Shown piece by piece: positions 10,774-34,905 of a stretch of DNA of 50,738 nucleotides. The translations under genes and the position numbers were made by a program. The stretch lies in contig JAFPZY010000031.1 in the NCBI GenBank assembly GCA_017417025.1, positions 1-50,738 on the forward strand. Direction: 5' to 3'. How positions within the stretch are numbered: position 1 is the first letter of the stretch; every line of letters begins with the position of its first letter. The notes beneath the pieces are model-generated. The model ran no database searches. It was not told where the DNA came from and worked only from the letters and a program-made list of their open reading frames with translations. The stretch comes from Paludibacteraceae bacterium (GTDB lineage: Bacteria > Bacteroidota > Bacteroidia > Bacteroidales > Paludibacteraceae).

Positions 10774-12054
10774 ATGACCTTGAAAAATATAATAATCCCC
10801 CTCTGCCTGTTCAGCGCCGTCTGCTACGCCGGTGAACAGGACAACGACTCGCTGCGCACATCGCCGGTGGCAGTGCCCGACTCCATAATAGCACTCCCCG
10901 ACTCTGCAGAACTGCATCGCGCGGACTCAATAGCAGAAGACTTGTTTTTTGACCAGGCGCTGGCATGGCTCGACACCACCGACTGCACCTCCGACAGCAT
11001 CATACTCGAGATGCCTGATTCGGTGTACAAGGCGCGGCTGCAGGAACTGCCTTTTGTAATAGAAGTGCCTTATAACCAAGTGGTACGCGGCTTCATCAAC
11101 CGCTACATCAAGTCCTCGCAGCGGCTTGCAGGGTTGAGCAGAAAAGCGGAATACTATTTCCCACTCTTCGAGGATATCCTCTGCCAGTACGACCTGCCCT
11201 ACGAACTATGCTACCTCGCCGTGATAGAGTCGGCTCTAAATCCGAATGCCCATTCGCCTATGGGAGCGGCAGGACTATGGCAGTTCATGCCCTCCACTGG
11301 CAAGCTCTACGGGCTGGAAATCAACTCACTGGTGGACGAGCGCATGGATCCGCTGAAGGCCACAGACGCAGCGTGCCGCTTTCTGAAAGCGCTATATGCA
11401 ACCTTCGGTGACTGGAACCTGGCCATAGCCGCCTACAACTGCGGTCCGGGCAACGTGAACAAAGCCATCCACCGCTCGGGCAAACGTGACTTCTGGAGCA
11501 TTTATCCGTATCTCCCGCGCGAGACACGCTCATATCTGCCAATCTTCATAGCCGCCTCATACGCCATGAACTACGCAGACGCGCACGGCATCTGCCCCGC
11601 CGAGACCGACAAGACAATGCGCACTGACACCATCCTGACACACGAGCGCCTGCACCTCAAACAGGTAAGCGACATAATGGGCATCGAACTTGACGAACTG
11701 CGCAGGCTGAATCCGCAATACATGCGGGATATAATCCCGGGCGGGCAGAAAGCATACACACTGTGCCTGCCAATAGAAAAAACAGGCGGCTTCATCGACA
11801 TGCACGACACCATTGTGGCACACCGCGCCGACGAACTTATCAACAACCGCCGGGCCGAAATTGACCTGCTGCACAAACAGGGACTGCACGGCGGCTACAG
11901 CGTTAACGGAGTGACCTTCTACAAGATAAAAAGCGGCGATACACTGGGCGGCATAGCAAAGAAATTCCATGTGTCAGTGAAACAACTGCGCAAATGGAAC
12001 AGACTGAAAAACGACAATATACGTGCCGGAAAGACTTTAAGAATAGGAGGCTGA
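10774..12054 (+). CDS. mltD: MltD-like membrane-bound lytic murein transglycosylase with LysM
   Basis: A 426-residue periplasmic enzyme that cleaves the glycan strands of peptidoglycan to 1,6-anhydro products. It has a signal peptide (about 1-19), a goose-lysozyme-like SLT domain at about 130-265 with catalytic Glu152 in VIESALNP and the signature SPMGAAGLWQF, then a divergent LysM near 290-335 and a clear LysM at about 382-425 (YKIKSGDTLGGIA). A lipobox is not obvious, so membrane anchoring is uncertain. The gene begins 10 nt after the DUF5683 stop. Confidence 0.92.
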   Translation: MTLKNIIIPLCLFSAVCYAGEQDNDSLRTSPVAVPDSIIALPDSAELHRADSIAEDLFFDQALAWLDTTDCTSDSIILEMPDSVYKARLQELPFVIEVPYNQVVRGFINRYIKSSQRLAGLSRKAEYYFPLFEDILCQYDLPYELCYLAVIESALNPNAHSPMGAAGLWQFMPSTGKLYGLEINSLVDERMDPLKATDAACRFLKALYATFGDWNLAIAAYNCGPGNVNKAIHRSGKRDFWSIYPYLPRETRSYLPIFIAASYAMNYADAHGICPAETDKTMRTDTILTHERLHLKQVSDIMGIELDELRRLNPQYMRDIIPGGQKAYTLCLPIEKTGGFIDMHDTIVAHRADELINNRRAEIDLLHKQGLHGGYSVNGVTFYKIKSGDTLGGIAKKFHVSVKQLRKWNRLKNDNIRAGKTLRIGG

Positions 12055-16774: not shown

Positions 16775-17970
16775 TGGACTATTGTTCCTATTGTTGATTT
16801 GCTATTTAAGACTTTTCGTATAGCACTATAGACACGTTCACAATTATTGTTATCATGATATACAAAATACTCTTTAATTCGTTGCATATAAATGGATTTG
16901 ATATGACAATCATTATCTAAAATAGTATTTAAGCATTTTAACAATTCGTTTTTTGTTGAAACTACAGAGCCTAAAGAATTATAATCAAACCATCCTGCAT
17001 TATAATGATAATTATAAAAATATTCCTTATCAAATTGATAATAAATAACGTTCTTTTTCATATATACAAAATCAAACAATACACTGGAATAATCTGTAAT
17101 TAGAATTATAGACTCTTTTAATAATTGCTGAACATCATATTCATGTTGGTTTGCAATAATAATGTTTTCATGATGAACTTTTTTCAAAAACACATCCAAA
17201 TAAGGTTGCATCTCGTGATGAGGATAAAACACCAGATTCAAATTTTGATGTGCCAATAATCGATGTAAATTGGAATCATTCAAAAAATCCACGTATGTGC
17301 GGACGTAATCAGACAATAGCACGTCATTTGATTTATATAACCATTCTCGCCATGTGGGCATTACTAATATCTGATGTTTTATTTTGTAATGATTAAGTTG
17401 ATCATACCTACAGAAACCTGTTAACGCGAGATGGTCTTCTGGATATAAATATTTTTTTTTGAAGTATTCATATTCAGGACGTGTGGCTGCGATAAGTAAA
17501 TCTAACGTAGTGTTTTTATAATCAAGGAAAGTCGTATAGTTGCATGTCACTCCGTGTTTTAGACTAATATGTGTCTTTCTCCTATAAGACGGACATACTT
17601 TCTTAAACCACAATCCCAAACCTGCAAAAGGGAAATATCCTTGTATATGAGTACTAATCAAACAATTGGCCCGCCATAACATAACATAGTGTTGCATACT
17701 ACGATAATCAATAATACTATCCGTGTAATCGGCCAAACGTTTCCTATCTGAAGACTCTTTACTTATTATGTAATATGATTTTATGTCTGGGTGATTCTTT
17801 TTCAAGTAAACAAAGAACCAATATCCATTATCCCTTGCATCAGTTCCGCGTTCCGTTATCAGCCAAATAGGGCATTTTTTATAAAATATAGATATAATAG
17901 CCGCCAATAGAACTCGGCAGAGTTCAATCATTTGTTGGCAACGAAACCATATTATATGCTCATGTCGCAT
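16771..17970 (-). CDS. CDP-glycerol glycerophosphotransferase-family protein
   Basis: A 399-residue protein of the TagB/TagF family (Glyphos_transf), which moves glycerol-phosphate or ribitol-phosphate from a CDP carrier to a growing glycan. Recognisable features are HISLKHGV near residue 150, FYPHHEM in the second lobe and the donor-site motif ITDYSSVLFDF near residue 300. It is very AT-rich compared with flanking genes. In a Gram-negative this points to a phosphodiester-linked polyol in capsule or O-antigen. It begins 1 nt after the ATP-grasp gene. Confidence 0.85.
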   Translation of the reverse strand: MRHEHIIWFRCQQMIELCRVLLAAIISIFYKKCPIWLITERGTDARDNGYWFFVYLKKNHPDIKSYYIISKESSDRKRLADYTDSIIDYRSMQHYVMLWRANCLISTHIQGYFPFAGLGLWFKKVCPSYRRKTHISLKHGVTCNYTTFLDYKNTTLDLLIAATRPEYEYFKKKYLYPEDHLALTGFCRYDQLNHYKIKHQILVMPTWREWLYKSNDVLLSDYVRTYVDFLNDSNLHRLLAHQNLNLVFYPHHEMQPYLDVFLKKVHHENIIIANQHEYDVQQLLKESIILITDYSSVLFDFVYMKKNVIYYQFDKEYFYNYHYNAGWFDYNSLGSVVSTKNELLKCLNTILDNDCHIKSIYMQRIKEYFVYHDNNNCERVYSAIRKVLNSKSTIGTIVQ

Positions 17971-17971
17971 T

Positions 17972-18910
17972 TTATGCTAAAGATAACATGTTTCCAAAAT
18001 ATGTGTCCCACTCTGAAGGACGGAATTTGTTGTATCCCCCACCATGATGCAATGTTATTTCCCCGAAATATAGTTGACCATCTACGTCGTAATAGTCTAC
18101 TCTAATATATTTAAATTGTTTTGCGATTTCTGCACCAAATTGTTTCATCTTTTCAAAACTGGCAGGAGAAGAAACATCGATTACTCGTTTTTTCAAATGT
18201 TCGTCTTTATCTGAATCCCAATCACATGGCAGAGGTTTCCAGTTCTCATCATAAATATTGCGTACATTTAATCCTTCTCTGTCAATAGATACATAAACAA
18301 ACGCTAGTTTGCCATTGATATAATGTAGTTTATAATCATTAGGGATTTTCCCCTCTCGGGTCTGTAATAATTCTTCTACAATAATCTGACGTGGAATGTC
18401 TTTGTATTGTAATTCCTGAGATTCTGCAAAATAATCTCTATGTAGCCAAAAGCGGCATAATCGCCGCAGTGCCATCCAGTCCACTTCTTGTTCTGAATAG
18501 AATATCATATAATCATGAGAAGAATGATTGGCTTTGACAATGCATGGAAATTTAGTGATGTTTTCTTTTGTGATTTCTCGCCAGTCCGATGTGTGGAATA
18601 TAACCGGCACATTGTATTGATTTCCAAAGCGCTCTGCTATTAAGCTTTTCATGGCATACTTATCCGCGCATATTGTGTAATAGTCATGGAATTCATTTAA
18701 TTTGAGCCATTGTATTTTTTCATTGAGAGTGATTGGATTTTGCAAATCCAAATCTTTCCCAAACGAGTGTTTGTAACGACGGCGCACTATGGCTTCACGA
18801 CTGAACCGTTTGTAATTTTTCCAAAGCCACAAATCATAAATTATGCGACAAATCAAATAATGGATATCACTATGTGTGCAATTCCTCTTGAGAAATTTAT
18901 TTAATTCCAT
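17972..18910 (-). CDS. TupA-like ATP-grasp ligase
   Basis: A 312-residue member of the TupA-like ATP-grasp family. TupA of alkaliphilic Bacillus is linked to teichuronopeptide synthesis, in which amino acids are attached to a uronic acid polymer. Visible family features are PITLNEKIQWLK, the ADKYAMKSLI lead-in, IVKANHSSHDY as the glycine-poor ATP loop, and RVDYYDVDGQLYFGEIT near the end as the metal-binding strand. It most likely forms an amide or peptide-like bond on a surface sugar. AT-rich, with 10 nt overlap with the HAD gene upstream. Confidence 0.85.
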   Translation of the reverse strand: MELNKFLKRNCTHSDIHYLICRIIYDLWLWKNYKRFSREAIVRRRYKHSFGKDLDLQNPITLNEKIQWLKLNEFHDYYTICADKYAMKSLIAERFGNQYNVPVIFHTSDWREITKENITKFPCIVKANHSSHDYMIFYSEQEVDWMALRRLCRFWLHRDYFAESQELQYKDIPRQIIVEELLQTREGKIPNDYKLHYINGKLAFVYVSIDREGLNVRNIYDENWKPLPCDWDSDKDEHLKKRVIDVSSPASFEKMKQFGAEIAKQFKYIRVDYYDVDGQLYFGEITLHHGGGYNKFRPSEWDTYFGNMLSLA

Positions 18911-20747: not shown

Positions 20748-22094
<1,347 letters not shown>

Positions 22095-22147
22095 CTATTA
22101 TTTCCATCTCTGAAAGGCGCGAGGCACCACTTCAGTCAAAAAGTATG

Positions 22148-22179
22148 CAAAGATAGTACAAAAACGGCATTTTGCCAAA
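22148..22179 (-). promoter_or_regulatory. Promoter of enolase
   Basis: On the minus strand TTTG (22179-22176), a 20-nt spacer and TATCTTTG (22155-22148) match the Bacteroidetes consensus. Transcription would begin near 22140, giving a leader of about 85 nt. Confidence 0.8.
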
Positions 22180-22248
22180 CATTTCCTCAAAAAAATATAT
22201 TTTGACAAGTCCATATACCAATCTGCGCGCGACGGCAGCGGTATATGC

Positions 22249-23040
22249 TCAGTTCATTCCGCGGAGAGTTTTGATGTGCTCATATGCCTCTTTGACGGCG
22301 CGGAACTTCTCAGTCGCCCTCTCGCGGACCTCCGCAGCAGCGCCGGTGACTTTGTCGGGATGATACTTCATCGCCATCCGCCTGTAGGCTTTCCTGACCT
22401 CGTCGTTGGTTGCGGAAGGGCTGATTTCCAGTGCTTTGTACGCCCAGTCTTTTTCTTTTCCGCGCCTGTACAACGCCACGAGAGAGTCGTAGTCGGGGCG
22501 CGAGATGCCAGTACCAGCCACAATCTGCGCTATCAGGGCCTCTTCGCGGGAGTCAAAATCGCCGTCGGCATTGGCAAGTTCAAGCAGCAGGTGCACCAGC
22601 TCGAGGCGGGTGGAATAATTAACGCTGTCTCTTATCTGCCCGCATACTTTGGCGACATCTATGTCCCTATCCAGCAGCGCTTTGAGCAGTTTCAGCGCCT
22701 GCAAAGCCTCCTCTTCGCCGAAGAGTTTTATCAGATACGGCTTCACAAACGCCACCTCCGACTTCAGTACTTTGCCGTCAGCCTTCATCACGCACGCCAT
22801 CAGCACCAGGAGAGAGACGCGGACATCGCCGCCAGTAAGACGGCTGCGCGACGAGCGCCAACTGCCTCCGGCAGAATCCTCATTATCAGCATCATAACTG
22901 CTGTCTTCCTGCTCTTCTCCGCTATCTGCCATGCCTTCGACAGTCTCCCACAACCAGCCGGCAGCGACACCGATAAGCGCGCCAATGGGACCGCCCAACA
23001 TAAGGCCCAGTCCGCCTAACAACCACTTTGAAATTGCCAT
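22249..23040 (-). CDS. TerB/DnaJ-domain protein (DjlA-like)
   Basis: A 263-residue co-chaperone-like protein. A glycine-rich N-terminal membrane segment (LLGGLGLMLGGPIGALIG, residues 7-24) is followed by an acidic linker, a TerB-like helical domain at about 65-175 and a C-terminal J domain with the HPD motif (KYHPDK) near residue 225. This order matches DjlA, a membrane-anchored DnaK partner. The start at 23040 (MAISKWLL) is chosen over an upstream extension that shows no family similarity and runs into repeats. Confidence 0.9.
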   Translation of the reverse strand: MAISKWLLGGLGLMLGGPIGALIGVAAGWLWETVEGMADSGEEQEDSSYDADNEDSAGGSWRSSRSRLTGGDVRVSLLVLMACVMKADGKVLKSEVAFVKPYLIKLFGEEEALQALKLLKALLDRDIDVAKVCGQIRDSVNYSTRLELVHLLLELANADGDFDSREEALIAQIVAGTGISRPDYDSLVALYRRGKEKDWAYKALEISPSATNDEVRKAYRRMAMKYHPDKVTGAAAEVRERATEKFRAVKEAYEHIKTLRGMN

Positions 23041-23192
23041 AATTCTCCCTGCTTCAAGAACAATAATTTTGACGTACATAAATGATGCACAAATATCATG
23101 CCACGCAGTGACAGGCGCATTGCCCGCCAGAGCAGACAAGAGAGGGGGTACAGGAAGGGTGTTTCCGGTGTGTTCTCTGCATGCTAATGGGG

Positions 23193-23258
23193 TAATCACC
23201 CAATAATCACCCAATAATCACTCAATAATCACCCAATAATTACGCGATAATAATTCAA
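23193..23258. repeat. 11-bp tandem array, 6 units
   Basis: Six consecutive 11-bp units of consensus TAATCACCCAA, with units 1, 2 and 4 identical and units 5 and 6 degenerate. Confidence 0.9.
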
Positions 23259-23274
23259 TACATACTGCTGAAAG

Positions 23275-23700
23275 AATAAAGAGGAGGAAGGAATAAGGAA
23301 TGAGGGGTTAGGAATGAGGGGTTAGGAATGAGGAATGAGGAATGAGAAATGAGGAGTGAGGAATGAGGAGTGAGGAGGACGGGAAGAGGATGGAGGAATA
23401 AGGAATAAGGAGTGAGGAATGAGGAATGAGGAACGAGGAATAAGGAATGAGGAGGGAGGAATGAGGAACGAGGAGGACGGGAAGAGGATGGAGGAGGAAT
23501 TAGGAGGGAGGAATTAAGAATTAGGAATTAAGAATTAGGAATTAGGAGTGAGAAGGAAGGAGGAAGGAGGAAGAGTTTTTAAGAAGGAGGGAGGAGAAAG
23601 GGATGAGGAGGAAGGGATGAGGAGGAAATGAGGAAGGAGGGAGAAGGTAGGGGGAGGGAATTAGGAAGTAGGAAGTAGAAAGTATGAGTGAGGGGAGGGA
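23275..23700 (+). repeat. Purine-only minisatellite (AGGAATG heptamers)
   Basis: About 425 bp in which the plus strand is nearly devoid of C. The left half is built from the heptamer AGGAATG and variants, including two 14-bp AGGAATGAGGGGTT units; the right half drifts to GAATTAGGAATTAAG and GGAGGAAGGGATGA. Similar words recur at 47975-48015. It is not coding in any frame. Confidence 0.85.
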
Positions 23701-23855
23701 GAAACATTACTATTTTTTAGATAAAGGTAAGAGAATTGCAGTTTTTGGGCGAAAATTATATTCTCTTTTTTATATTTTCATTAAAAAATACGCAGGACAA
23801 AGTGTAAAAATATGGCAAATTATAACAAATGAATACTTTTTCTAAAAAACAGGTA

Positions 23856-23886
23856 TTTCCGCAATGATAATATAGTAGTACCTTTG
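23856..23886 (+). promoter_or_regulatory. Promoter of the TonB-receptor operon
   Basis: TACCTTTG at 23879-23886 is a perfect -7 element; the -33 element is weaker (TTTC at 23856-23859, 19-nt spacer). Transcription would start near 23893, so the 23/24-bp array that follows would be almost entirely in the 5' leader. Confidence 0.65.
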
Positions 23887-23916
23887 CACCGTTTTTTTGA
23901 TTGGGCAAAAAGGCCT

Positions 23917-24433
23917 CAACAATCATGGGCAAAAAGGCATGAACAGCATGGGCAAAAAACCATGAACAGCATGGGCACAAAACCATGAACAATCATGGGC
24001 AAAAAGGCATGAACAATCATGGGCACAAAACCATGAAAATCATGGGCAAAAAAACATGAACATCATGGGCACAAAGGCATGAACAATCATGTGCACAAAA
24101 CCATGAACATCATGGGCACAAAACCATGAACATCATGTGCAAAAAACCATGAACATCATGGGCAAAAAACCATGAACATCATGGGCAAAAAGGCCTGAAC
24201 ATCATGGGCAAAAAGGCCTGAACATCATGGGCAAAAAGGCCTGAACAATCACGGGCACAAAACCATGAACATCATGGGCACAAAGGCATGAACAATCATG
24301 GGCACAAAACCATGAACATCATGGGACAAAAGGCATGAACAATCATGCGCACAAAACCATGAACAGCATGGGCACAAAAAAAACATGAACACATTGAACA
24401 CAAAATTATGAACATCATCAGACACAGGATTAT
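23917..24433 (+). repeat. 23/24-bp tandem array in the leader of the TonB receptor
   Basis: Twenty-two contiguous imperfect units of consensus GAACATCATGGGCAAAAACC plus AT follow one another with no spacers. Unit lengths are 23 or 24 bp, with a single 26-bp unit at 24361-24386. Most junctions read CCATGAAC or GCATGAAC, so an ATG overlaps a TGA. A 23-bp unit thus encodes an eight-residue peptide (MNIMGKKP) that stops within the next unit's ATG; 24-bp units read through in frame. The last upstream mini-ORF (MNTLNTKL) ends on the ATGA that is the receptor start at 24408. The final unit is inside the receptor frame. Confidence 0.95.
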
Positions 24434-27194
24434 GAACATCAATACACGTTTATTTGCATTTGCCAGCGCCGTCTTGCTGGCTTTGACGGCTCAGGGGCAG
24501 ACAGTGACAGGTATAGTGACCGACGCGCAGACGCGCGAACCTCTTATAGGAGTGACCGTGGTGGACGGTAACAACCCCTCGACGGGCACCATAACCGACT
24601 TTGACGGCGCCTACAAGATAGAGCTTTCCGGCAGCGACAAGCAGAAGAAACTGGTGTTTTCATACGTCGGCTACGACAAAGAGGAGCGCCTGCTCAAGCC
24701 GGGTGCGACGACACTGAACATAACGATGATGCAGCACAACGAGCAGCTGGACGAAGTGGTAGTGACCTCAAGCCGCTTCGAGCAGCGCCAGACGGATGTG
24801 CCTGTATCAATGGCAGTTATAAAGCCGGAGATGCTAAAAGCACAGGCCCCGACCGACCTGACTTCGACCCTTCAGACACTGCCCGGCGTGGAGATAATAG
24901 ACAAGCAGCCGAGCATCCGCGGCGGCGGGGGCTGGACCTACAGCGTGGGTTCGCGGTGCCAGGTGCTGATGGACGAAATGACAATACTGAACCCGAAGAC
25001 GGGCGAGATAAACTGGAACAACGTTCCGCTTGAGAATGTAGCTCAGGTGGAGGTGATAAAAGGCGCGTCCTCCGTTTTGTACGGCTCGTCGGCTCTCAAC
25101 GGCGTTATCAACGTCCGCACCAAACGTCCTAACAGCGAGCCCGTGACCAAGCTTTCGGGCTATGTGGGCGTATATGACAACTACAAGAACTACAAATACA
25201 CCGGTTCGCGCCTGCCTCTGTACTACGGCGCGGAAGTGTCACACTCGCGCCGGATAGGGAACTTCGACGTGTCGGCAGCGCTGAGCGGCTTCAAGGACGA
25301 AGGGTTCAGGCAGCAGAGCTTCAACGACCGCGTGCGCCTCGGGGGCAACATGACCTATCATGCGCCGATGGAGGGAGAGAAGTACCTGAACACAGGTTTC
25401 AACATGAACTACGTAGCCAACCAATACGGCGACTTCTTCATCTGGCGCAGCCCGAAAGACCCGATCCACCCCTCTCCGCTGACTAACATGGGGCGCAAGG
25501 AGCACAATTTCAACATCGACCCGTTCCTCAACTACAACGACACCGAGCGCGGCATCTCGCACAAAGTGCGGACACGCTTCTACCTGACAGCCGACAACCT
25601 CACCACGCCCTCATCAACAATGACGACCGAGGAACTGGTGAAGTGGGGAGTGAAAAGCTTCGACTTCGACAAGCTGAAAGGCTACTACGACAAGATAAAA
25701 AGCTATACGGACAACGGCTCGGCCATAGAGGACGCGCTACTGGTGACCTTTCAGGACGTAGCCATACCGGTGATGGAAGAGCGGTGGCTGGACGCGGTAG
25801 TGAACGGCATTGACCTTGTGAAAAACGGGCTGGGGTACACAGGCACCGTGGCGGAGCTGCAGGACGTGGTGGCATACGCGCTGAACATGGTGACGGACCA
25901 CACCCCCACCCGCCCGGAGATGACATACAACGGCTACATCGACTATCAGTTCGCCAAAGAGTGGGAGTCGGGCGTTCACCTCACGACAGGCGTGACATGG
26001 AACCACATCACCAACACGGCGAACATAACCGGCACTCACGAGACCGACAACCTCGCCGCCTATCTCCAGTATGACCACCGCATAGCCAACCGCCTCACAC
26101 TCAGCGCAGGACTGCGCCTGGAGTACTACAGGATGGACACCTGCTACAAGGAGGCTAACATCCAGTTAGGGAATTGGACATGCCCCGTAAGACCTGTAAT
26201 GCGCGCCGGCCTGAACTGGGAGATATACAAGGCAGGATTCCTGCGCGCCAACTTCGGACAAGGCTACCGCAACCCCTCTATCACCGAGAAATTCGCGCGC
26301 AAAGACATAGGCGGCGTGGGCGTTTATCCGAACCACGACATCAAACCCGAATCGGGCTACAACACGGAGCTGGGCTACAGGCAGTTATACAAGTTCGGGC
26401 CGATAACGGGTATGTTGGATGTAGCAGGGTTCTACACGGAGTACCGCGACATGATTGAATATCAGTTCGGGCTGTTCCGCAACTCCGATTTCAGCATGAT
26501 AAACTCAATGTACGACGTTATAGAAGAGGCCAAAAGCATGATAAACGGCATAGTGGAGACGAAGTCGCTTGCCGGTGCGGGAATAGGCATAGGGGCACAG
26601 TTCGTAAATGTGAACCGCGCCCGTATTTACGGTGCAGAGGTGAGCACAGCGGGCAAGGTGGACATCAAAAAGGACATGGCGCTGACATACAACATCGGCT
26701 ACACCTTCACGGAGCCGGAAGACATAGACAACGCCAAGCGCATAGAGGAGGAAAAGACCTACACCGACCCGCTGCAGATGAAGAACAAGTCGAACGACTC
26801 GAAGTACCTCAAATACCGCAACCACCACTCTTTCAAGGCGACGCTCGACTACAACGTCAAGTGGTTCTCGGTGGGTGTCAATATGATGTACCGCAGCAAG
26901 ATACTGGCGGTGGATTATCTGATGGTGGACGAGCGGGTGAAAGAGCAGCCCGACCTTATGGACTATGCGCGCAAGTTCATCTTCGGATATGAGGACGGTG
27001 TGTCGCTGCACGACTACTGGATGCAGCACAACACCGGCATCTTCACAATGGACGTGCGTGCGTCCGTCATGCTGAAGAACTATGCCGAGGTGCAGTTCCT
27101 TGTGAACAACCTGCTGAACACCGAGTATAGTTTCCGCCCCATGGCCCTGTCTGCTCCACGCACCTTTGTATGCAGACTGAATATTCAATTGTAA
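24408..27194 (+). CDS. TonB-dependent outer-membrane receptor
   Basis: A 928-residue TonB-dependent transporter. After a signal peptide comes a CarboxypepD_reg-like domain (about residues 31-115, TVTGIVTDAQTREPLIGVTV), a plug domain (about 120-225, with VEVIKGASSVLYGSSALNGV) and a 22-strand barrel ending in an aromatic strand (FVCRLNIQL). No SusD follows, so it is more like a siderophore, haem or cofactor receptor than a SusC. Substrate is unknown. Two in-frame ATGs are possible: 24408, coupled to the leader array, and 24432 (MNINTRLFAF), which gives a cleaner signal peptide. Three secreted proteins follow in the same operon. Confidence 0.93.
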   Translation: MNIIRHRIMNINTRLFAFASAVLLALTAQGQTVTGIVTDAQTREPLIGVTVVDGNNPSTGTITDFDGAYKIELSGSDKQKKLVFSYVGYDKEERLLKPGATTLNITMMQHNEQLDEVVVTSSRFEQRQTDVPVSMAVIKPEMLKAQAPTDLTSTLQTLPGVEIIDKQPSIRGGGGWTYSVGSRCQVLMDEMTILNPKTGEINWNNVPLENVAQVEVIKGASSVLYGSSALNGVINVRTKRPNSEPVTKLSGYVGVYDNYKNYKYTGSRLPLYYGAEVSHSRRIGNFDVSAALSGFKDEGFRQQSFNDRVRLGGNMTYHAPMEGEKYLNTGFNMNYVANQYGDFFIWRSPKDPIHPSPLTNMGRKEHNFNIDPFLNYNDTERGISHKVRTRFYLTADNLTTPSSTMTTEELVKWGVKSFDFDKLKGYYDKIKSYTDNGSAIEDALLVTFQDVAIPVMEERWLDAVVNGIDLVKNGLGYTGTVAELQDVVAYALNMVTDHTPTRPEMTYNGYIDYQFAKEWESGVHLTTGVTWNHITNTANITGTHETDNLAAYLQYDHRIANRLTLSAGLRLEYYRMDTCYKEANIQLGNWTCPVRPVMRAGLNWEIYKAGFLRANFGQGYRNPSITEKFARKDIGGVGVYPNHDIKPESGYNTELGYRQLYKFGPITGMLDVAGFYTEYRDMIEYQFGLFRNSDFSMINSMYDVIEEAKSMINGIVETKSLAGAGIGIGAQFVNVNRARIYGAEVSTAGKVDIKKDMALTYNIGYTFTEPEDIDNAKRIEEEKTYTDPLQMKNKSNDSKYLKYRNHHSFKATLDYNVKWFSVGVNMMYRSKILAVDYLMVDERVKEQPDLMDYARKFIFGYEDGVSLHDYWMQHNTGIFTMDVRASVMLKNYAEVQFLVNNLLNTEYSFRPMALSAPRTFVCRLNIQL

Positions 27195-27200
27195 GCAGTT

Positions 27201-29798
27201 ATGAGAATGAAAAGATTTTGTATAGCACTTATTCCGGCACTGTGGTTGGCAGCAAGCGTGTCCGCCGTGTCTGTGAACGATGTGACAGGAGTGTTCCGCG
27301 GCTCGCTGAACATAGCCGGCGACACCTACCAGGGCAAGGAGGTATATATTCTGCCCGGGACAAGCGGCAGTTCGGTGACTTTCGTGCTGCCGGACTTCAG
27401 GTATAATGCAGCCTCGTTGGGCGACATTGTGCTGCCTAATATCCCGATGGGGTCCAACGGCCGCCTGACACTGGAGAAGGCGACGCTGTATATCAAGCCT
27501 ATATCGGAGCGCGCCACCGTGTCCGTCATCAACGGTCTGGAGGAGGGAGGAACGGTTTACAACTCAGAAATCGGCAACTCCTCGGCGCAGGTTCTGCTTA
27601 CGATTGCCGCCCCGTCGCTGCCCGAAGACATATTTGTGCTGTTCAGCGGCAGCAAAGTGACGAACCGCAACTATGCTGTGACCAACGGCGGTTTTGAGGG
27701 CAGCTGGTCAAACGGCGAACCCAGCGGCTGGCACTCGTTCAACAGCGCCACCGGCTCTTTTGTGAGTTTCGTGAAGACGACCGAGCAATTCAAGCAGTCG
27801 TCAGACAAACGCCCCGGGTCGCAAGGCTCGCACAGCGCCATGATTTCGTCGAAGATAGTGGCAGGGGCAAAGGCCAACGGCAACTGCACCAACGGACAAA
27901 TAAACGCAGGGTCTATGACGGCGGATGACGCAAGCGGCAACTACAACTTCTCGGACCCGTCAAACAGCAATTACAACACGCCCTTTGTGGGCAATCCGGA
28001 CTCAGTGGTCTTCTGGGCGAAGTACATCCCCGCCGACAAGAATCCGCAGAACTCGGTGAACAAGGCGCGCGTACATGCAGTGGTAACGACGGCAGCGCGC
28101 TATCAGGACCCCGAGTCGCAAAATTACTCATCGATAAAGATTGCAGATGCGGCACTCAATTATTCCGCCACTTCAAGCATGGGGTGGCAGCGCCTGGCAG
28201 TGCCCTTCAAATATACGTCGGTGAATCCGGCATCGGCGGCATATATGCTCATCACATTCTCGTCCAACCAGTCTCCCGGAGGCGGGTCGTCACATTCAGA
28301 AGGCACTATTTCAAAGACTTACTATTTGGACAATGTTTATATAGACGATGTAGAGATGGTTTATAACCATGCACTCACGTCGCTGACCATGAACGGGAAG
28401 GCTGTGCAGTTTACGGGCAATAGCGCTTCGGTGAAGCAGGTATATAGCGACAGCGACTACGACTTTGTCGCAAAAATGAACGGCAAAGGGGCGAAGTCGT
28501 TTGTGGGATATGATGCCGCTAACGCGCGCGTATATATATATGTAGTAGCCCACAACTACTCCCAGGCGCGGAACTACTCGGTTTACACTCTGCAGATGGC
28601 ACCGCCGAGCAAGGACACGGAGTATGCCTATAATGCGACCACGTGCTCAAACGAGCCATACTCGGATGAGAATTTCTCCGGCTTGAAGAAAAGCGGCACC
28701 TACACAGCCGTTATTCCGAACACACAAGGCGGCGACTCGCTAATAACACTGACGCTGAAAGTGAACACAGCATACACTTTTCCGGTATCGGCCTCAATAC
28801 GCCCCGGGGAGAAATACACATGGCGCGGGAAAGAGTACAGCTATACGGCAGAAGGCGACTACACAGACGCTGTAAAGCTGAAGACAGTTGCGGGCTGCGA
28901 CTCCGTTTACACGCTTGAGCTGTCGGTGCGCGCAGAAGACGCCGTTTATGAGGAAGAGCTTACGGCATGCCGCTATGAGGACATGGTGTGGCACGGCAAG
29001 ACACTTCCGACCGCCGAGACAGGGGTGTTCACCATATATGACTCGCTGAAGTCGGTTTATGGCAAAGACTCTGTACATGTCCTTTCGCTGACAGTGCAGA
29101 CCGCTTACATGCAAGAGCAGACAGCCTACGTGAGCAACGAGAACACCGACTACTATTCATGGGCTGGTCATGCGGACTATGATGTGCAGTATCCATCCGG
29201 CAAGGTGTTTGAGAAGCAGAACTCGGTAATGCTGATTAACGAAGGCGACTATGTGCTGACCGAAAGGCACACAATGAGCAACGGCTGCGACTCTGCCATA
29301 GTACTGCATCTGAAGGTGTCGCCGATTCCGGTGACTTACGGAGATTACACGACCACTTTATGCGAGGGAGAGCAATTCACATACAGCGGGACTGTATATA
29401 CAGAGTCTTTCAACGGCGAAGTGCGCCTGCCGCAGCCAAACATATACGGCGGCGACTCGATAGTCCGTCTGGCGGTGAATGTCCTCCAGTCGCCCAAAGT
29501 GCATGAGTATCAGACCATAACAACCGGCGAAGGCGGCTCTTGGGAAGGATATGATTTGAGCACATTCCCGATTGGCGAGCGCGAGCTGAAAGCATACTAC
29601 TATGCAGCCAACGGCTGCGACTCGGTGATGGTGCTGCACCTGACAGTGAAGCCCGTGGAACTGCCTACAGGCGGCAGCGAGACGCAGCAAGAGAAAGCCG
29701 AAGTGCGCAAGGAAATCCGCAACGGGCGACTCTATATCATCCGCAAGGACGAGAGCGTATATGACTTGCTGGGGCGGAAGATGAGGAAAGAACAATAA
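27201..29798 (+). CDS. Secreted calycin-like/PCMD repeat protein with T9SS-like tail
   Basis: An 865-residue exported protein. It has a signal peptide (1-22), a calycin-like beta-barrel domain (about 23-150), a PCMD-type carbohydrate-binding-like domain (about 155-400, with GGFEGSW, GWHSFNSATG, SPGGGSSHSEG), then four or five beta-rich repeats of 70-85 residues each closing with GCDSVY-, GCDSAI- or GCDSVM-like motifs, and a short C-terminal signal (NGRLYIIRKDESVYDLLGRK). It starts 6 nt after the receptor. Surface exposure via T9SS is inferred. The first 400 residues are paralogous to the next gene. Domain names are from memory of these Bacteroidetes families. Confidence 0.75.
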   Translation: MRMKRFCIALIPALWLAASVSAVSVNDVTGVFRGSLNIAGDTYQGKEVYILPGTSGSSVTFVLPDFRYNAASLGDIVLPNIPMGSNGRLTLEKATLYIKPISERATVSVINGLEEGGTVYNSEIGNSSAQVLLTIAAPSLPEDIFVLFSGSKVTNRNYAVTNGGFEGSWSNGEPSGWHSFNSATGSFVSFVKTTEQFKQSSDKRPGSQGSHSAMISSKIVAGAKANGNCTNGQINAGSMTADDASGNYNFSDPSNSNYNTPFVGNPDSVVFWAKYIPADKNPQNSVNKARVHAVVTTAARYQDPESQNYSSIKIADAALNYSATSSMGWQRLAVPFKYTSVNPASAAYMLITFSSNQSPGGGSSHSEGTISKTYYLDNVYIDDVEMVYNHALTSLTMNGKAVQFTGNSASVKQVYSDSDYDFVAKMNGKGAKSFVGYDAANARVYIYVVAHNYSQARNYSVYTLQMAPPSKDTEYAYNATTCSNEPYSDENFSGLKKSGTYTAVIPNTQGGDSLITLTLKVNTAYTFPVSASIRPGEKYTWRGKEYSYTAEGDYTDAVKLKTVAGCDSVYTLELSVRAEDAVYEEELTACRYEDMVWHGKTLPTAETGVFTIYDSLKSVYGKDSVHVLSLTVQTAYMQEQTAYVSNENTDYYSWAGHADYDVQYPSGKVFEKQNSVMLINEGDYVLTERHTMSNGCDSAIVLHLKVSPIPVTYGDYTTTLCEGEQFTYSGTVYTESFNGEVRLPQPNIYGGDSIVRLAVNVLQSPKVHEYQTITTGEGGSWEGYDLSTFPIGERELKAYYYAANGCDSVMVLHLTVKPVELPTGGSETQQEKAEVRKEIRNGRLYIIRKDESVYDLLGRKMRKEQ

Positions 29799-29835
29799 AG
29801 AGACTATAAATAAACTACATAAAAACAACAAAGCA

Positions 29836-31404
29836 ATGAAAAAACTGTTTCTTACTATTTTGGCAGGCTTGCTGGTATCAGCACAAGTATCTGCCGTATC
29901 GGTGTCTGATGTATGCGGCCGCTACAACGGCAATCTGACTGTTGACGGCGTTGATTTTGCCGATAAGATGATTTATCTGCTGCCCGGGACGGTGAACAAC
30001 AGCGTCACTTTTGTGCTCCCTGATTTCACATACAACGCAGGGAAACTGGGCAATATAGTGCTGCCCAATATCCCGATGGACGACAAGGGACAACTCTCGC
30101 TGGAGAAGGCCACGCTGTACATAGGTGCAAGTCTGGAACAGCGCGCCACCATCGATATCATCAACGGTCTGGAAGAGGGCGGAACAGTGTACAACTCGGT
30201 TGTTTCGGCAGCAGAAGCACAGGTGCTTCTGCAGATTGCAGCCCCCTCTCTGAAAGAGCCTATCTTCGTGTTCTACAACGGCAAATCGGAAAACGGAGCG
30301 AACTACCTTCTGCCCAACGGCGGCTTTGAAGGCGAGTGGAAAGATTCAGAGCCCGCAGGCTGGCACTCATTCAACAGCGCCACAGGCATAATGGTGGATT
30401 TTGTAAAGAAGCCCGACCAGTTTGTACAAGCCACTGATGTACGCCCGGGCTCAGAAGGCTCTGCAAGCGCTTTAATTTCCTCAAAGATGGTGGCAGGCGC
30501 AAAAGCCAACGGCAACTGCACCAACGGCCGCATCAATGCCGGCTCGATGACAGCAGAAGACGCAGCAGGCAACTACAACTTCTCGGACCCTGCAGAGTCA
30601 GGCTTCAACACTCCATTCAACGGCCGTCCAGACTCGATTGTGTTCTGGGCGAAGTACCAGCCCGCCGACCGCAATGCGGAGAACGAAGTGAACAAAGCCC
30701 GCGTGAGCGTAATAATAACCACTGACGCCCGCTATCAGGACCCCGAAGGGGAGAACGACTATGCAGAAATCAAAATAGGCTCGGCTATAAAGAACTACGC
30801 CGCGACCGCCAATATGGACTGGCAGCGCATCTCCGTGCCGTTTGAATATGAAGCAGCCAACGCCGAGAAACAGCCTGCATATATCCTTGCCACATTCACG
30901 ACGAACATGACCCCCGGCGGAGGTTCGTCATATTCAGAGGGCAAACTGACCAAAGTGAACGTGCTTGACAGCGTTTATCTTGACGATGTGGAGCTGGTTT
31001 ACAACCGCGAAATGCTTTCGCTGAGCGCCACCGACAAGAACGGGAAGAGCGACATCAAGTTTGAAAAGGACATCGCCAAGATTGATGCCGAGTACTGCGA
31101 CAGCTGCTACGTGATGGACGCACAGGGCAACGGACAGACCTCGCAAGTGTTCATAGGATATGACGCTGCACACAAATGCGCCTACGCCTATATCATTGCC
31201 GACGACTATGCACAGACAAAGCAATACAGCCTCTACCGCATGGACTTCACAGACAGCCAGACCGACGACCTTGAGCCGATAAAAGAGGGTCTGGCAGAGA
31301 TTCCGGCAGCGGCACTGCAATATGAGAAAGTGATGATTGACGGACAACTGCTTATACGCCGTGGGCAAGCGTGGTATAACGCTGCCGGCGTGCGTATAAA
31401 ATAA
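29836..31404 (+). CDS. Secreted calycin-like/PCMD protein, shorter paralogue
   Basis: A 522-residue exported protein that repeats the calycin-like plus PCMD architecture of the gene before it. The words LPGTVNNSVTFVLPDF, GWHSFNSATG, ANGNCTNGRINAGSMTA and TPGGGSSYSEG align almost residue for residue, but there are no GCDS repeats. It ends in a short tail of the same kind (DGQLLIRRGQAWYNAAGV). The pair arose by tandem duplication, followed by gain or loss of the repeats. It starts 37 nt after its paralogue. A role in ligand capture for the receptor is possible but unproven. Confidence 0.75.
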   Translation: MKKLFLTILAGLLVSAQVSAVSVSDVCGRYNGNLTVDGVDFADKMIYLLPGTVNNSVTFVLPDFTYNAGKLGNIVLPNIPMDDKGQLSLEKATLYIGASLEQRATIDIINGLEEGGTVYNSVVSAAEAQVLLQIAAPSLKEPIFVFYNGKSENGANYLLPNGGFEGEWKDSEPAGWHSFNSATGIMVDFVKKPDQFVQATDVRPGSEGSASALISSKMVAGAKANGNCTNGRINAGSMTAEDAAGNYNFSDPAESGFNTPFNGRPDSIVFWAKYQPADRNAENEVNKARVSVIITTDARYQDPEGENDYAEIKIGSAIKNYAATANMDWQRISVPFEYEAANAEKQPAYILATFTTNMTPGGGSSYSEGKLTKVNVLDSVYLDDVELVYNREMLSLSATDKNGKSDIKFEKDIAKIDAEYCDSCYVMDAQGNGQTSQVFIGYDAAHKCAYAYIIADDYAQTKQYSLYRMDFTDSQTDDLEPIKEGLAEIPAAALQYEKVMIDGQLLIRRGQAWYNAAGVRIK

Positions 31405-31444
31405 AATACGGCGCATGTGCGCCTGCTTATAAACAAACACAAAC

Positions 31445-33331
31445 ATGAAAAAACTTCTTTGGACAAACATCTTTATCTGCTGTCTGGCATCTGTATCCGC
31501 ACAGACTTACAGGGACGGAGTCTGGTACTCCATCTATGACACCGAGACCCACACCATGAACACGCAGGGGGACTACGCTACAGGCGGCATCTTCGCCCCT
31601 ACCGGCGGGCAACTTAACGTGCAATGGAAATATGAGTGGATTGACTTGTTCGGAGCTTTCAGCAAAGTCAATACCCAAGTCCTGGAATCAGCCGACGGCG
31701 GCAAAAACACAACGCAACGCGGCAAGTTACAGGAGAACACAGGTAACAACAGCAACACAACCGAGCATTTTACGGTCAGCCGCAACATCAACTGGATAAA
31801 GTTCAACCGTCCTGATGATGAAGGATTGAACGGTCCGACCCACAAAGTGTCGGTCTATCACATTGATATTCCGCTTGCCAGACACATATTGCTGCCTTCG
31901 GGCAACTACGGCACAACCACAGCTTCGCATGACTTCGACAGTCAGAAGGCTCTATCGGCTTCGTCTGCTTATCATGTGGATCTGCGCTCGTTTCTCTCTG
32001 CGGCGGACATTACAGTAACTTCTTCAGCACCCGAGATTTTCCGTATAGGCTCGGCAGACAACACCGAGGGCCTGAAGTATGCAGTGGGGGCCAATGCCTG
32101 CGCCAGCAGCAACGGCAAGGCCGAAGCAGCAGGCGGCAGTGCGCTGGGCAATATAGCCAACTACGGTTTCGACATCTACTTTGTGCCGCAGGAGGGGAAA
32201 GAGTACAAGGCGACAGTCACTATAACTGACGGAGTGTCAAGTGCATCGGTGGAAGTGACAGGTAAAGGCATAAAGCTTGACCAGTCGATAACCTGGGAGC
32301 AGCAGACAGAGAGTCCTATTCTGTCAAACGGCTCGATTGAGTCGGCGACGGCTTCGTCCGGCTTAGATGTGACATATTCGTTTGACCCAGAGGGGATTGT
32401 GTCCTTCGAGGACGGGATACTGGCTATCAGCGGTCTCGGGCAGGTGTCCATTACCGCTTCGCAGGCAGGCAATGGAGTTTACAATGCCGCAGAACAGGTG
32501 ACCAAAGTGCTGACTATTATTCCGGCTGAGACTTCATACGCCTATACAGCATCTATCTGCGAAGGTGACGCATATTCAGACGAGAACTTTGAGAACCTCA
32601 CGGCCGGCGGTCCGTATTACGACACCATCCCGAACATGTACGGCACTGACTCTGTGATTGTCCTCACGCTGCAAGTCAATCCCGTTTACCTCTTCGACGA
32701 AGGGAGCCGCGAGATTTATCAGGGGACGGAAGAGACATGGCAAGGCGTAGAGCTGAGCCAACTGCCCGTTGGCGACACACTGCTGGTTGCAGAATATGCC
32801 ACAGTGTCCGGCTGCGACTCGGTTTATAAACTCGCTCTGGCGGTTGTAGTCCGCCCGACGACATACGGCAATGAGAACTTTGTCATCTGCGCCGGAGACA
32901 CAGCAGAGTACGCAGGCAAGAAATATACCCGTCCGACAGTTGATGGTCCGATACTGATTGAGGAAAAGAACATCTACGGCGGCGACTCGTTAGTGACAGT
33001 GAATGTGAATGTCCTTCCTCTCAAGCACATAGACGATGCTCCGATGACCATCACAGAGGGGGACGAGGTAGAGTGGCAGCACATAGAACTCAAAGAACTG
33101 CCAGTAGGCGACACCACATTAGTGGCAGTCTATACAGCAGCAAACGGCTGTGACTCAACATATACCATCACTGTCAGCGTAAAAGAGAAAGTGGCTACAG
33201 GCCTCAACCAGAGCAAGGCGAACAGCGAAAGAGTGCGCAAGACTATAATCAATGGCCGTCTGTATATCCGCAAAGGAGAGACCCTGTATGACTGCTTGGG
33301 AGGTAAAGTGACGGGGGATGTTGATAATTGA
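31445..33331 (+). CDS. Secreted GCDS-repeat protein with T9SS-like tail
   Basis: A 628-residue exported protein. After the signal peptide (about 1-19) comes a beta-rich domain with no family I recognise (residues 20-270), a cadherin/Ig-like segment (about 275-360), then repeats with GTDSVIVL, GCDSVYKL, GGDSLVTV and GCDSTYTI like those of the gene at 27201. It closes with NGRLYIRKGETLYDCLGG. It lacks the calycin and PCMD domains. It is the last gene of the receptor operon, 40 nt after the previous stop. Function unknown; adhesion or ligand presentation is plausible. Confidence 0.72.
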   Translation: MKKLLWTNIFICCLASVSAQTYRDGVWYSIYDTETHTMNTQGDYATGGIFAPTGGQLNVQWKYEWIDLFGAFSKVNTQVLESADGGKNTTQRGKLQENTGNNSNTTEHFTVSRNINWIKFNRPDDEGLNGPTHKVSVYHIDIPLARHILLPSGNYGTTTASHDFDSQKALSASSAYHVDLRSFLSAADITVTSSAPEIFRIGSADNTEGLKYAVGANACASSNGKAEAAGGSALGNIANYGFDIYFVPQEGKEYKATVTITDGVSSASVEVTGKGIKLDQSITWEQQTESPILSNGSIESATASSGLDVTYSFDPEGIVSFEDGILAISGLGQVSITASQAGNGVYNAAEQVTKVLTIIPAETSYAYTASICEGDAYSDENFENLTAGGPYYDTIPNMYGTDSVIVLTLQVNPVYLFDEGSREIYQGTEETWQGVELSQLPVGDTLLVAEYATVSGCDSVYKLALAVVVRPTTYGNENFVICAGDTAEYAGKKYTRPTVDGPILIEEKNIYGGDSLVTVNVNVLPLKHIDDAPMTITEGDEVEWQHIELKELPVGDTTLVAVYTAANGCDSTYTITVSVKEKVATGLNQSKANSERVRKTIINGRLYIRKGETLYDCLGGKVTGDVDN

Positions 33332-33433: not shown

Positions 33434-33538
33434 GATTGTTTTTGTTTATTAGTAATTCTGCAGACATTAAGTATATATCACCTGCAGGAACTAACTGACA
33501 TGCCGCGAGTCTCTGCAGTCTTATTCGGAAATGATATG

Positions 33539-33604
33539 TTAATGCTGTGTTAATCCTGTGTTAATCCTGTGTTAATCCTGTGTTAATCCTGTGTTAATCC
33601 TGTG
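33539..33604. repeat. 11-bp tandem array, 6 units (TTAATCCTGTG)
   Basis: Six contiguous units; units 2-6 are identical TTAATCCTGTG and unit 1 differs by one base (TTAATGCTGTG). Confidence 0.95.
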
Positions 33605-33659
33605 TTGAAACATGCAGAGTAAAAAAGGAGATGTAGAGGGGAAGGTATAGTTCAAGGGG

Positions 33660-34020
33660 ATAGAGAGAAGAGAGCGTTCAGGATGGAGAAGAAAGTGCTC
33701 AAGGGAGAGAGAGAGAAGAGAGCGCTCTGGATGGAGAATAAAGTACTCAAGGGAGAAAGAGAAGAGAGTGCTCTGGATGGAGAAGATAGTGCTCAAGGGA
33801 GATAGAGGAGAGAGTGCTCAGGATGGAGAAGAAAGTGCTCAAGGGAGAGAGAGAAGAGAGCGCTCAAGATGGAGAATAAAGTGCTCAAGGGAGAGAGAGA
33901 AGAGAGCGCTCAAGATGGAGAATAAAGTGCTCAAGGGAGAGAGAGGAGAGAGTGCTCAGGATGGAGAAGAAAGTGCTCAAGGGGGAGAGAGAGAAGAGAG
34001 TGCTCTGGATGGAGAATTAG
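33660..34020 (+). repeat. Purine-rich ~46-bp tandem array
   Basis: About eight imperfect units with the frame AAAGTGCTCAAGGG, AGAGAGAGAAGAGAG, CGCTC(A/T)(A/G)GATGGAGAA; two adjacent units near 33850-33940 are almost identical. The plus strand is the purine strand. The period is not a multiple of three, so the open frames on both strands are not credible genes. Confidence 0.85.
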
Positions 34021-34312
34021 GAACTGCTCTAAATAGAGGGGAAAAGGAGTGCTCAGGGGCGATAGAAAAAAGAGTACTCCGGATAGAGAGAAAAGGGATA
34101 GTTCAAAGCAGAGAAGAAAGATAAAGCAATCGGAGCGAGGCAGATATATATTATCGGCAGAGAGGAATAGGCCGAGAGGAATTAGGCTAAGAGAAATAAG
34201 GCTAAGATGAATAGGCAGAGATAAATAGGCAAAGATAAATAGGCAAAGATAAATAGGCAAAGAAGATAGCCGAGAAAATTGGCCGAGAAGATTGGCCGAG
34301 AAGATTGGCCGA

Positions 34313-34378
34313 GATTAGGTTGAGATTAGGTTGAGATTAGGTTGAGATTAGGTTGAGATTAGGTTGAGATTAGGTTGA
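34313..34378. repeat. 11-bp tandem array, 6 units (GATTAGGTTGA)
   Basis: Six identical contiguous 11-bp units, directly after three 13-bp units containing GATTGGCCGAGAA. Confidence 0.95.
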
Positions 34379-34449
34379 GAGGAAAACAATAAAGATGAGA
34401 GGTAAAGCAAAGATGAGGGGTAAGGCAAAGATGAGGGGCGCAGTAAAAG

Positions 34450-34587
34450 AAGTTGAGTAAAAATGAGAGGGTGAGCAAAGATGAGTTAAGTAAAGATGAG
34501 AAGTTGAGTAATGATGAGAAGTTAAGTAAAAATGAGAAGTTAAGTAAAAATGAGAGGCTGAGTAAAGATGAGAAGTTAAGTAAAGAT
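34450..34587 (+). repeat. 18-bp imperfect tandem units
   Basis: Units resembling AAAGATGAGAAGTTAAGT repeat about seven times and give a frame coding for a KLSKDE-type hexapeptide repeat. It has no signal peptide, promoter or domain, so I treat it as a minisatellite. Confidence 0.7.
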
Positions 34588-34614
34588 GAGAGTCCGGCGG
34601 GAGGCCGGACTCTC
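34588..34614. terminator. Strong hairpin in the convergent intergenic region
   Basis: A perfect 11-bp stem (GAGAGTCCGGC and GCCGGACTCTC) with a 5-nt loop. No T-run follows on either strand, so intrinsic termination is uncertain; it could also be an interspersed palindrome. Confidence 0.45.
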
Positions 34615-34683
34615 TTGAGGAACAGATATGTTGAGATTTATCTACGCAAATATCTACATCAAGTATTAAGCATTAGCTATGTT

Positions 34684-34829
34684 ATTAACATTAATTAGTA
34701 ACACATTGTTAATATAAAATATCAACTCTGCTATTAACATTAATCAGTAACACATTGTTAATATAAAATATCAGCTCTGCTATTAACATTAATCAGTAAC
34801 ACATTGTTAATATAAACATCAACTCTGAC
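34684..34829. repeat. 49-bp AT-rich tandem array, 3 units
   Basis: Three near-identical units of 49, 49 and 48 bp beginning ATTAACATTAAT and containing GTAACACATTGTTAATATAA, plus a degenerate fourth start, directly beyond the end of the M16 peptidase gene. Confidence 0.9.
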
Positions 34830-34905
34830 ATTAACATCAATCGGGTGCCTAAGTATTAATATTAATTAGTGAGTATAGCATTAACACTTAATATCTGCGG
34901 GAGGG

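Follow-up and report, generated by a model that had tools for sequence, protein, structure and literature searches.

A minisatellite in the leader of a TonB-dependent receptor gene of a Paludibacteraceae genome: most likely a repeat that expanded within one species, not a purpose-built ribosome relay

Background

Translation in Bacteroidetes starts without Shine-Dalgarno pairing and, as far as excerpts of PMC6847099 go, in Flavobacterium johnsoniae an A at position -3 has a positive influence, with -6 among the positions discussed, and AUG is under-represented near starts across the phylum. Long leaders do occur in this phylum. For example in Bacteroides thetaiotaomicron, 13.5% of the mRNAs have a 5' UTR of more than 100 nt, some of them with several short ORFs, and such leaders as that of BT_4401 (462 nt), with several putative sORFs, are akin to the one described here, but the excerpt of PMC7366714 mentions no repeat array in them.

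Repeats or short reading frames next to a gene are described for several other systems. The MIRU elements of mycobacteria are minisatellite units with a short ORF whose stop overlaps the following start by 4 nt, which couples the ORF to that gene, and which are apparently mobile and insert at start codons (PMC12548453, in excerpt). The TAACTGA heptamer repeats described by MacGregor in Beggiatoaceae, some Bacteroidetes and Cyanobacteria are intergenic and often lie just 5' of starts; a translational role has been proposed for them, and close relatives are sometimes without them (PMC4679880, in excerpt). The T-tract of sabA is a repeat of variable length next to the promoter of a surface protein gene (PMC4081817, in excerpt), and in leader-peptide re-initiation a short ORF that ends near a start codon has been proposed to raise translation (PMC4833913, in excerpt).

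The locus studied here lies in a draft genome of a Paludibacteraceae bacterium, in a window of 50,738 nt, by which we mean the whole stretch of DNA that was analysed; it is contig C2 of a 2.18-Mb assembly of 64 contigs that is 89% complete, and its promoter type and gene content look Bacteroidetes-like. In this window the leader of a TonB-dependent receptor gene carries an array of about 22 tandem units. MIRU units are about 50-100 bp long, whereas the unit of this array has 23 bp, is seemingly built from its gene's own start and is private to one leader. In fact, the ATGA overlap with the next start, as known from MIRU, is found at 32 of 36 upstream mini-ORFs, but dispersal over several loci is not, as a search for the unit elsewhere in the 89% complete draft gave no second array. 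The TAACTGA repeats, in the excerpt cited above, are one heptamer that recurs at many genes and contains stop codons but no ATG, whereas here a 23-bp unit stands at one gene, and recurrence of the same short repeat at many genes was not found. According to the other two excerpts, the sabA tract acts on RNA polymerase binding and its length variants have been measured, whereas our array is located 3' of the promoter; and leader-peptide re-initiation has one leader gene per structural gene, whereas the array is a broken chain of mini-ORFs. The array has the make-up of a leader VNTR with MIRU-like architecture. Among the papers listed from openly licensed PMC text under the terms used, and as far as their titles and abstract starts go, none reports arrays derived from a gene's own start region.

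The leader array and its gene

The features of the locus are as follows.

23879..23886, plus strand: -7 promoter element TACCTTTG (TANNTTTG consensus), from reading of the sequence
23887..23914, plus strand: short leader before the array, CACCGTTTTTTTGATTGGGCAAAAAGGC; the first half is similar to the leaders of orthologues, and the second half equals the distal half of the unit
23902..24431, plus strand: tandem array of about 22 units of 23, 24 or 26 bp, typical unit ATGAACATCATGGGCAMAAARSC, the outermost units diverged
24195..24264, plus strand: three CTGA units at which the ATGA-linked chain is broken, from the unit alignment and ORF reading
24408..24410, plus strand: upstream ATG in the frame of the receptor, where the last mini-ORF ends, from ORF reading
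24432..27194, plus strand: TonB-dependent receptor of 920 aa, likely true start 24432, from Pfam matches
27201..33331, plus strand: three genes 3' of the receptor, of 865, 522 and 628 aa, from spacing and domain matches

The TANNTTTG consensus for the -7 element follows PMC7366714 (in excerpt), and no TTG was seen at the -33 place of the TACCTTTG promoter when the sequence was read. The receptor has the Pfam domains CarboxypepD_reg_2, Plug and TonB beta-barrel (PF13715, PF07715, PF00593), and no NCBIfam model reached its cut-off among the matches listed, which are 25 of 27. The ATG at 24408 lies 24 nt, or 8 codons, before that at 24432 in the same frame; with its signal-peptide-like MNINTRLFAFASAVLLALTAQGQ, 24432 is likelier to be the start of the receptor than 24408. 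The three downstream genes, as their spacing suggests, are probably in the same operon, and the second of them has a PCMD domain above the cut-off and calycin-like matches below it. Upstream of the receptor promoter, a degenerate 7-bp array (AGGAATG), mostly purine, was also seen at 23289-23684.

The array itself, which the first-pass annotation had given as 22 contiguous units between the -7 element and the receptor, is real. TRF finds it at 23902-24418 with period 23, a score of 585 and 22.0 copies, and again with period 47, a higher score of 648 and 11.0 copies. The head-to-tail units lie within the range of a minisatellite or VNTR (about 10-100 bp), and with the promoter element at 23879-23886, the array reaching to 24431 and the start at 24432, they stand between promoter and gene, downstream of a transcript start that is a prediction. 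Between 23939 and 24432 there are 21 spacings, namely 13 of 23 bp, 7 of 24 bp and one of 26 bp, those of 22 and 25 bp being absent, and TGAA is constant across all units from 23939 to 24408. The rule that units are 23, 24 or 26 bp only, as it had been formulated from the sequence, therefore describes the spacings correctly, but it rests on about four independent events. Among the seven 24-bp units, six have one insertion in common, AACAATC, which seemingly spread by copying, partly as 47-bp dimers, and a count by eye gives about four independent length changes, namely AACAATC and those in units 24033, 24359 and 24408. Assuming for each change of 1-3 bp a chance of 2/3 to avoid 1 modulo 3, the arithmetic gives P ~0.2 that all four do so, and with so few changes the lack of 22- and 25-bp units is unremarkable.

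Upstream of 24408 there are 36 ATGs, and 32 of the 36 ORFs that they open stop at a TGA within ATGA, the linked mini-ORFs being 5 to 24 codons long. The remaining four ATGs (24172, 24181, 24204 and 24227) are unlinked because the units at 24195, 24218 and 24241 begin with CTGA. A relay from the first ATG, 23925, runs for nine steps and ends at 24198, at the three CTGA units, the chain being broken from 24196, and only the ATGs from 24265 on are connected to the receptor frame, via ATG 24408. The arithmetic of the first-pass annotation was right, yet the present array is not a single chain; the break that the annotation placed at about 24197-24266 corresponds to the three CTGA units at 24195-24264. 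Moreover, the last mini-ORF (24385-24411), said to end on the receptor's own ATGA, ends on ATG 24408 and not on 24432. As to the initiation context, an A is present at both -3 and -6 of 31 of the 36 upstream ATGs, or 33 of 38 when both receptor starts are counted.

Orthologous leaders in the genus

By protein search at E <= 1e-100, the receptor was found in 63 of 177 other genomes of the genus (64 of 178 with its own). Leaders were read at 62 loci from 61 genomes, one genome having two loci (L041, L058); the partial orthologues L017 of G012 and that of G186, at a contig end, were left out. From these 62, L080 was removed as it had no match, L049 as it was cut and L029 as it had no in-frame ATG, and the 59 leaders that could be read, with promoter motif and start, are 8-270 nt long with a median of 30. 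The TANNTTTG element lies upstream of all 59, its position being doubtful in L038 and L058, and 44 of the 59 starts are ATGA. A comparable array is present in none of the 59 readable leaders, and a conserved relay is rejected on this ground.

Only three of these leaders exceed 100 nt (L026, L038 and L059), the promoter call being uncertain in L038. The nearest orthologue, L026 in genome G098 with 80% identity, has a leader of about 220 nt in which TRF finds no repeat, as if the receptor leader tolerated insertions. A weak two-copy 23-bp repeat with extra ATGs in the leader of L059, as well as a weak two-copy 13-bp repeat at the start of L066, were not scored as arrays.

Origin and possible function of the array

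Our results make it probable that the array is a lineage-specific minisatellite which has grown from the receptor's own leader and start codon. In the unit alignment, the unit consists of a leader half and a start half: the leader opens like those of the orthologues (GCACCGTTTTTTTGA) and goes on with TTGGGCAAAAAGGC, which corresponds to the unit's distal half, whereas its proximal half, ATGAACATCA, is found at the beginning of the receptor. The earlier suggestion of an amplified initiation site is borne out by this arrangement, in which the pre-array leader holds one half and the receptor start the other; the same picture would, however, be given by an array that simply had its outer limits there, with no such founder event. 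We infer as the founding event a tandem duplication of a 23-24 bp segment made of the ancestral leader tail TTGGGCAAAAAGGC and the receptor start ATGAACATCA, whereby a second, internal ATG would have been made at the duplication junction (ATCA joined to TGGGC). Growth to 22 units would then have proceeded by slippage or unequal recombination, partly of 47-bp dimers, and the mini-ORFs with their ATGA links may be a by-product of start-codon copies and of a unit length of 2 or 0 modulo 3. If the units are transcribed and translated, as we suppose, the mRNA would offer 36 decoy start codons, some of them masked by small hairpins, and the receptor would be translated mainly via direct initiation at 24432 or 24408, re-initiation from the units past the break being a help at most. 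A changed copy number would change the output passively, with a size and sign that are matters of expectation here, and a selected relay would be unnecessary.

How often such a founder yields linkage was read from a simulation in which segments of 15-35 bp spanning the start were duplicated in each usable orthologue, an overlap being of the ATGA or TGATG type. A stop overlapping an ATG resulted from 5184 of 15406 leader-plus-start duplications (34%), and from 3376 of 5504 (61%) when the length was 2 modulo 3. About one founder in three gives linkage by itself, and linkage beyond the chance of a founder duplication is not seen; since a founded linkage is copied along with the unit, the 32 linked ATGs out of 36 count as about one observation. 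Against the founder view, it has to be said that the linkage of 32 in 36 compares with 12 of 93 ATGs in 26 other array leaders of the genus, that as many as 36 upstream AUGs, of which 31 carry an A at both -3 and -6, are odd for a neutral insertion in this phylum, and that the constant TGAA is what selection for linkage would predict, the independent mutations being few. On the same side stand the likeness of start windows to their own leaders, described below, the strong folding of the RNA and the weak two-copy repeats of L059 and L066.

The first-pass annotation had proposed a relay or ribosome-loading device: ribosomes would enter at the first unit, stop and start anew at every ATGA and in this way be handed on to the receptor, the copy number tuning the loading. 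We regard such a relay as unlikely. Coupling at 4-nt stop/start overlaps is known in prokaryotes (PMC12548453, in excerpt), and the stops on an overlapping ATG, the favourable A at -3 and -6 and a linkage denser than in the other array leaders are all in its favour, but the chain from the first ATG halts at 24198 and is broken for the 5' two thirds of the array, so that no unbroken chain leads to the gene; the linkage would be produced by roughly every third founder duplication and then be copied; and conservation in orthologues is lacking in all 59 readable leaders. Furthermore, among 17 other array leaders in the sample of the same genome, 12 have no linked ATG and 9 of 61 ATGs are linked, and repeats are no denser in leaders than in convergent or other divergent non-coding DNA. 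A relay or tuning role is unsupported, though conceivable in view of the A at -3 and -6, as linkage is unsurprising after the founder simulation, other leader arrays are common and starts are not favoured. A different reading concerns effect and is compatible with the minisatellite explanation, which concerns origin: the upstream starts together with the hairpins would draw initiation away from the receptor start and reduce translation of the receptor, and slippage would give cell-to-cell variation as in a contingency locus. This we hold to be possible, though doubtful. The 36 upstream AUGs with 31 in good context speak for it, as do the strong folding of the RNA (z -8.2) and the known tract-length rheostats such as sabA (PMC4081817, in excerpt), but arrays also precede the genes for YchF (L087) and GDP-mannose 4,6-dehydratase (L126), and a focus on surface genes is not apparent. 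With A at -3 and -6 of 33 of the 38 ATGs, the avoidance of AUG in the phylum and the AUG-bearing hairpins, it is a plausible prediction that the leader burdens or tunes translation of the receptor.

In the folding prediction, the leader RNA folds better than 100 of 100 shuffles and its hairpins include AUGs, and this value makes a structural role for the leader RNA conceivable. Most units contain the dyad CATGA-N3/4-TCATG, which might make the array a set of operator or RNA-binding sites, or of weak antisense terminators. In 23200-24700 there are 12 terminator-like sites, all on the minus strand, where shuffles lead one to expect 1.1, and 10 of the 12, when sorted by eye, consist of this dyad, or a sequence close to it, with a run of T behind; we nevertheless take this to be very improbable, as the dyad arises from the duplication junction, is disrupted in the three CTGA units with, by eye, no compensating change, and was not seen by eye in the other leader arrays read. 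The terminator-like sites lie at 23960-24371 of the window on the minus strand. Compensated hairpins are rejected, as the CTGA units are uncompensated by eye, and no Rfam element, be it riboswitch or leader, matched at the gathering score in 22000-28000.

Several other origins were considered besides the leader minisatellite. A phage origin is rejected, as no phage record matched at E 1e-5 and viral contigs gave a single 18-base match. A dispersed element is likewise rejected: the 89% complete draft of the own genome has one array only, and four single unit matches in contigs of unrelated phyla are taken as chance, the contig collection being one that may omit records close to the own genome. 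Loss of repair, either mismatch repair or SbcD, is rejected as a special cause of the repeats. Matches to MutS_V and MutL_C are present; SbcD was not found in the own genome, and its absence is not special since it is rare genus- and order-wide, being above the cut-off in 8 of 61 genomes of the genus and 11 of 40 of the order (own included).

The array is most likely a leader minisatellite that looks like a relay through its founder. In this view the repeat expanded within a single species, whose genome is rich in repeats, and was not built as a ribosome relay. It would illustrate how a gene's initiation region may be drawn into a leader minisatellite and come to resemble a relay made by design, and the 36 upstream AUGs, 31 in favourable context, together with the array-free relatives in the genus make start-codon selection and re-initiation testable in this phylum.

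Tandem repeats in the genome and the genus

In a 709-kb sample of the genome, tandem repeats cover 15.8% of leader DNA, 19.6% of convergent and 17.9% of other divergent non-coding DNA, 8.6% of other co-directional non-coding DNA and 1.3% of coding DNA; leaders are no denser in repeats than convergent or other divergent non-coding DNA. In smaller samples of two relatives, the leader cover is 9.2% in G098 (3 of 20 leaders) and 0% in G196 (0 of 36). Arrays in leaders are abundant: they were found in 17 of 160 leaders of promoter genes within 1.05 Mb, or 48% of the genome, and in 9 of 105 leaders within 0.72 Mb from 22 other members of the genus, the genes being longest-ORF guesses, by which some of these leaders are wrong. 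The 160 leaders had passed a filter that required a TTG close to -33 and a gap below 1500 nt, and the window's own leader is not among them. Some of the arrays have no or few ATGs, for example those of L126 and L087 named above, of L133 (four-helix-bundle protein) and of L088:638 (repeat protein with a signal-like start).

In other cases the unit copies the start. By eye, such units were seen in the same genome in L130 (minus strand), L086 (minus strand, 14 bp) and L088:14301 (58 bp, PepO-like below the cut-off), and in other species in L174 (minus strand, 16 bp) and L120 (25 bp). In L130 (G000:C29, reverse complement 18576-18774), seven copies 27-32 bp apart have the form ATG RAA AAR CAT TGA; they read MKKH-stop or MEKH-stop, and are followed by the true start of a PARCEL-repeat surface protein (MKKHLLLALVC). 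The 14-bp array of L086 (G000:C5, reverse complement ~3869-3959) has TGATG overlaps and ends on the gene's own TGATGAAG start, 3 of its 6 leader ATGs being linked. Other species of the genus have duplicated start regions as well, in L174 (reverse complement, ~5950-5989), L120 (181-231) and L175 (reverse complement, ~17010-17110), the units of L175 having, by eye, GTA in place of the ATG of the true start. Altogether 13 start-aligned duplications were listed (9 own, 4 from others), of which several look spurious. With the window, L130, L086 and L088 in one genome and L174 and L120 in other species as its cases, one may conceive that the genus repeatedly amplifies initiation regions in leaders, and that the number of copies would govern the share of ribosomes that are caught, lose their way or arrive at the gene, as a rheostat of start choice without Shine-Dalgarno pairing; we find this rather improbable.

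Near-duplicates of 24-base windows were counted by position relative to the gene. Of 401 genes in the own genome, 25-30 have one between -96 and -48, compared with 10 at the start codon itself and 0-5 within the gene; for the 224 genes from other species, the counts are 13-17 between -64 and -16 and 4 at the start. Start regions as favoured targets of duplication are rejected, there being no peak at the start codon in either set; arrays spill over into start codons without favouring them. When start windows were compared with their own leaders, 13 of 692 had near-copies at >=18/24, and swapped leaders gave 0, a likeness that matches what a repeat-rich genome would give.

Repeats of other kinds were seen as well. 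The convergent intergenic region at 33537-34862 of the window is packed with several arrays (11, 46, 42, 11, 18 and 49 bp). By eye, the related 11-bp repeats TGTTAATCCTG and AACACAGGATT form arrays at unrelated loci, namely at 33537-33606 of the window, L086 11630, L091 18655, L102 248 and L151 (reverse complement, ~11780-11910), and TATCCTTCGGT likewise occurs at several loci (window 50238, L087 155, L090 8303), which by eye constitute dispersed families of 11/22-bp repeats.
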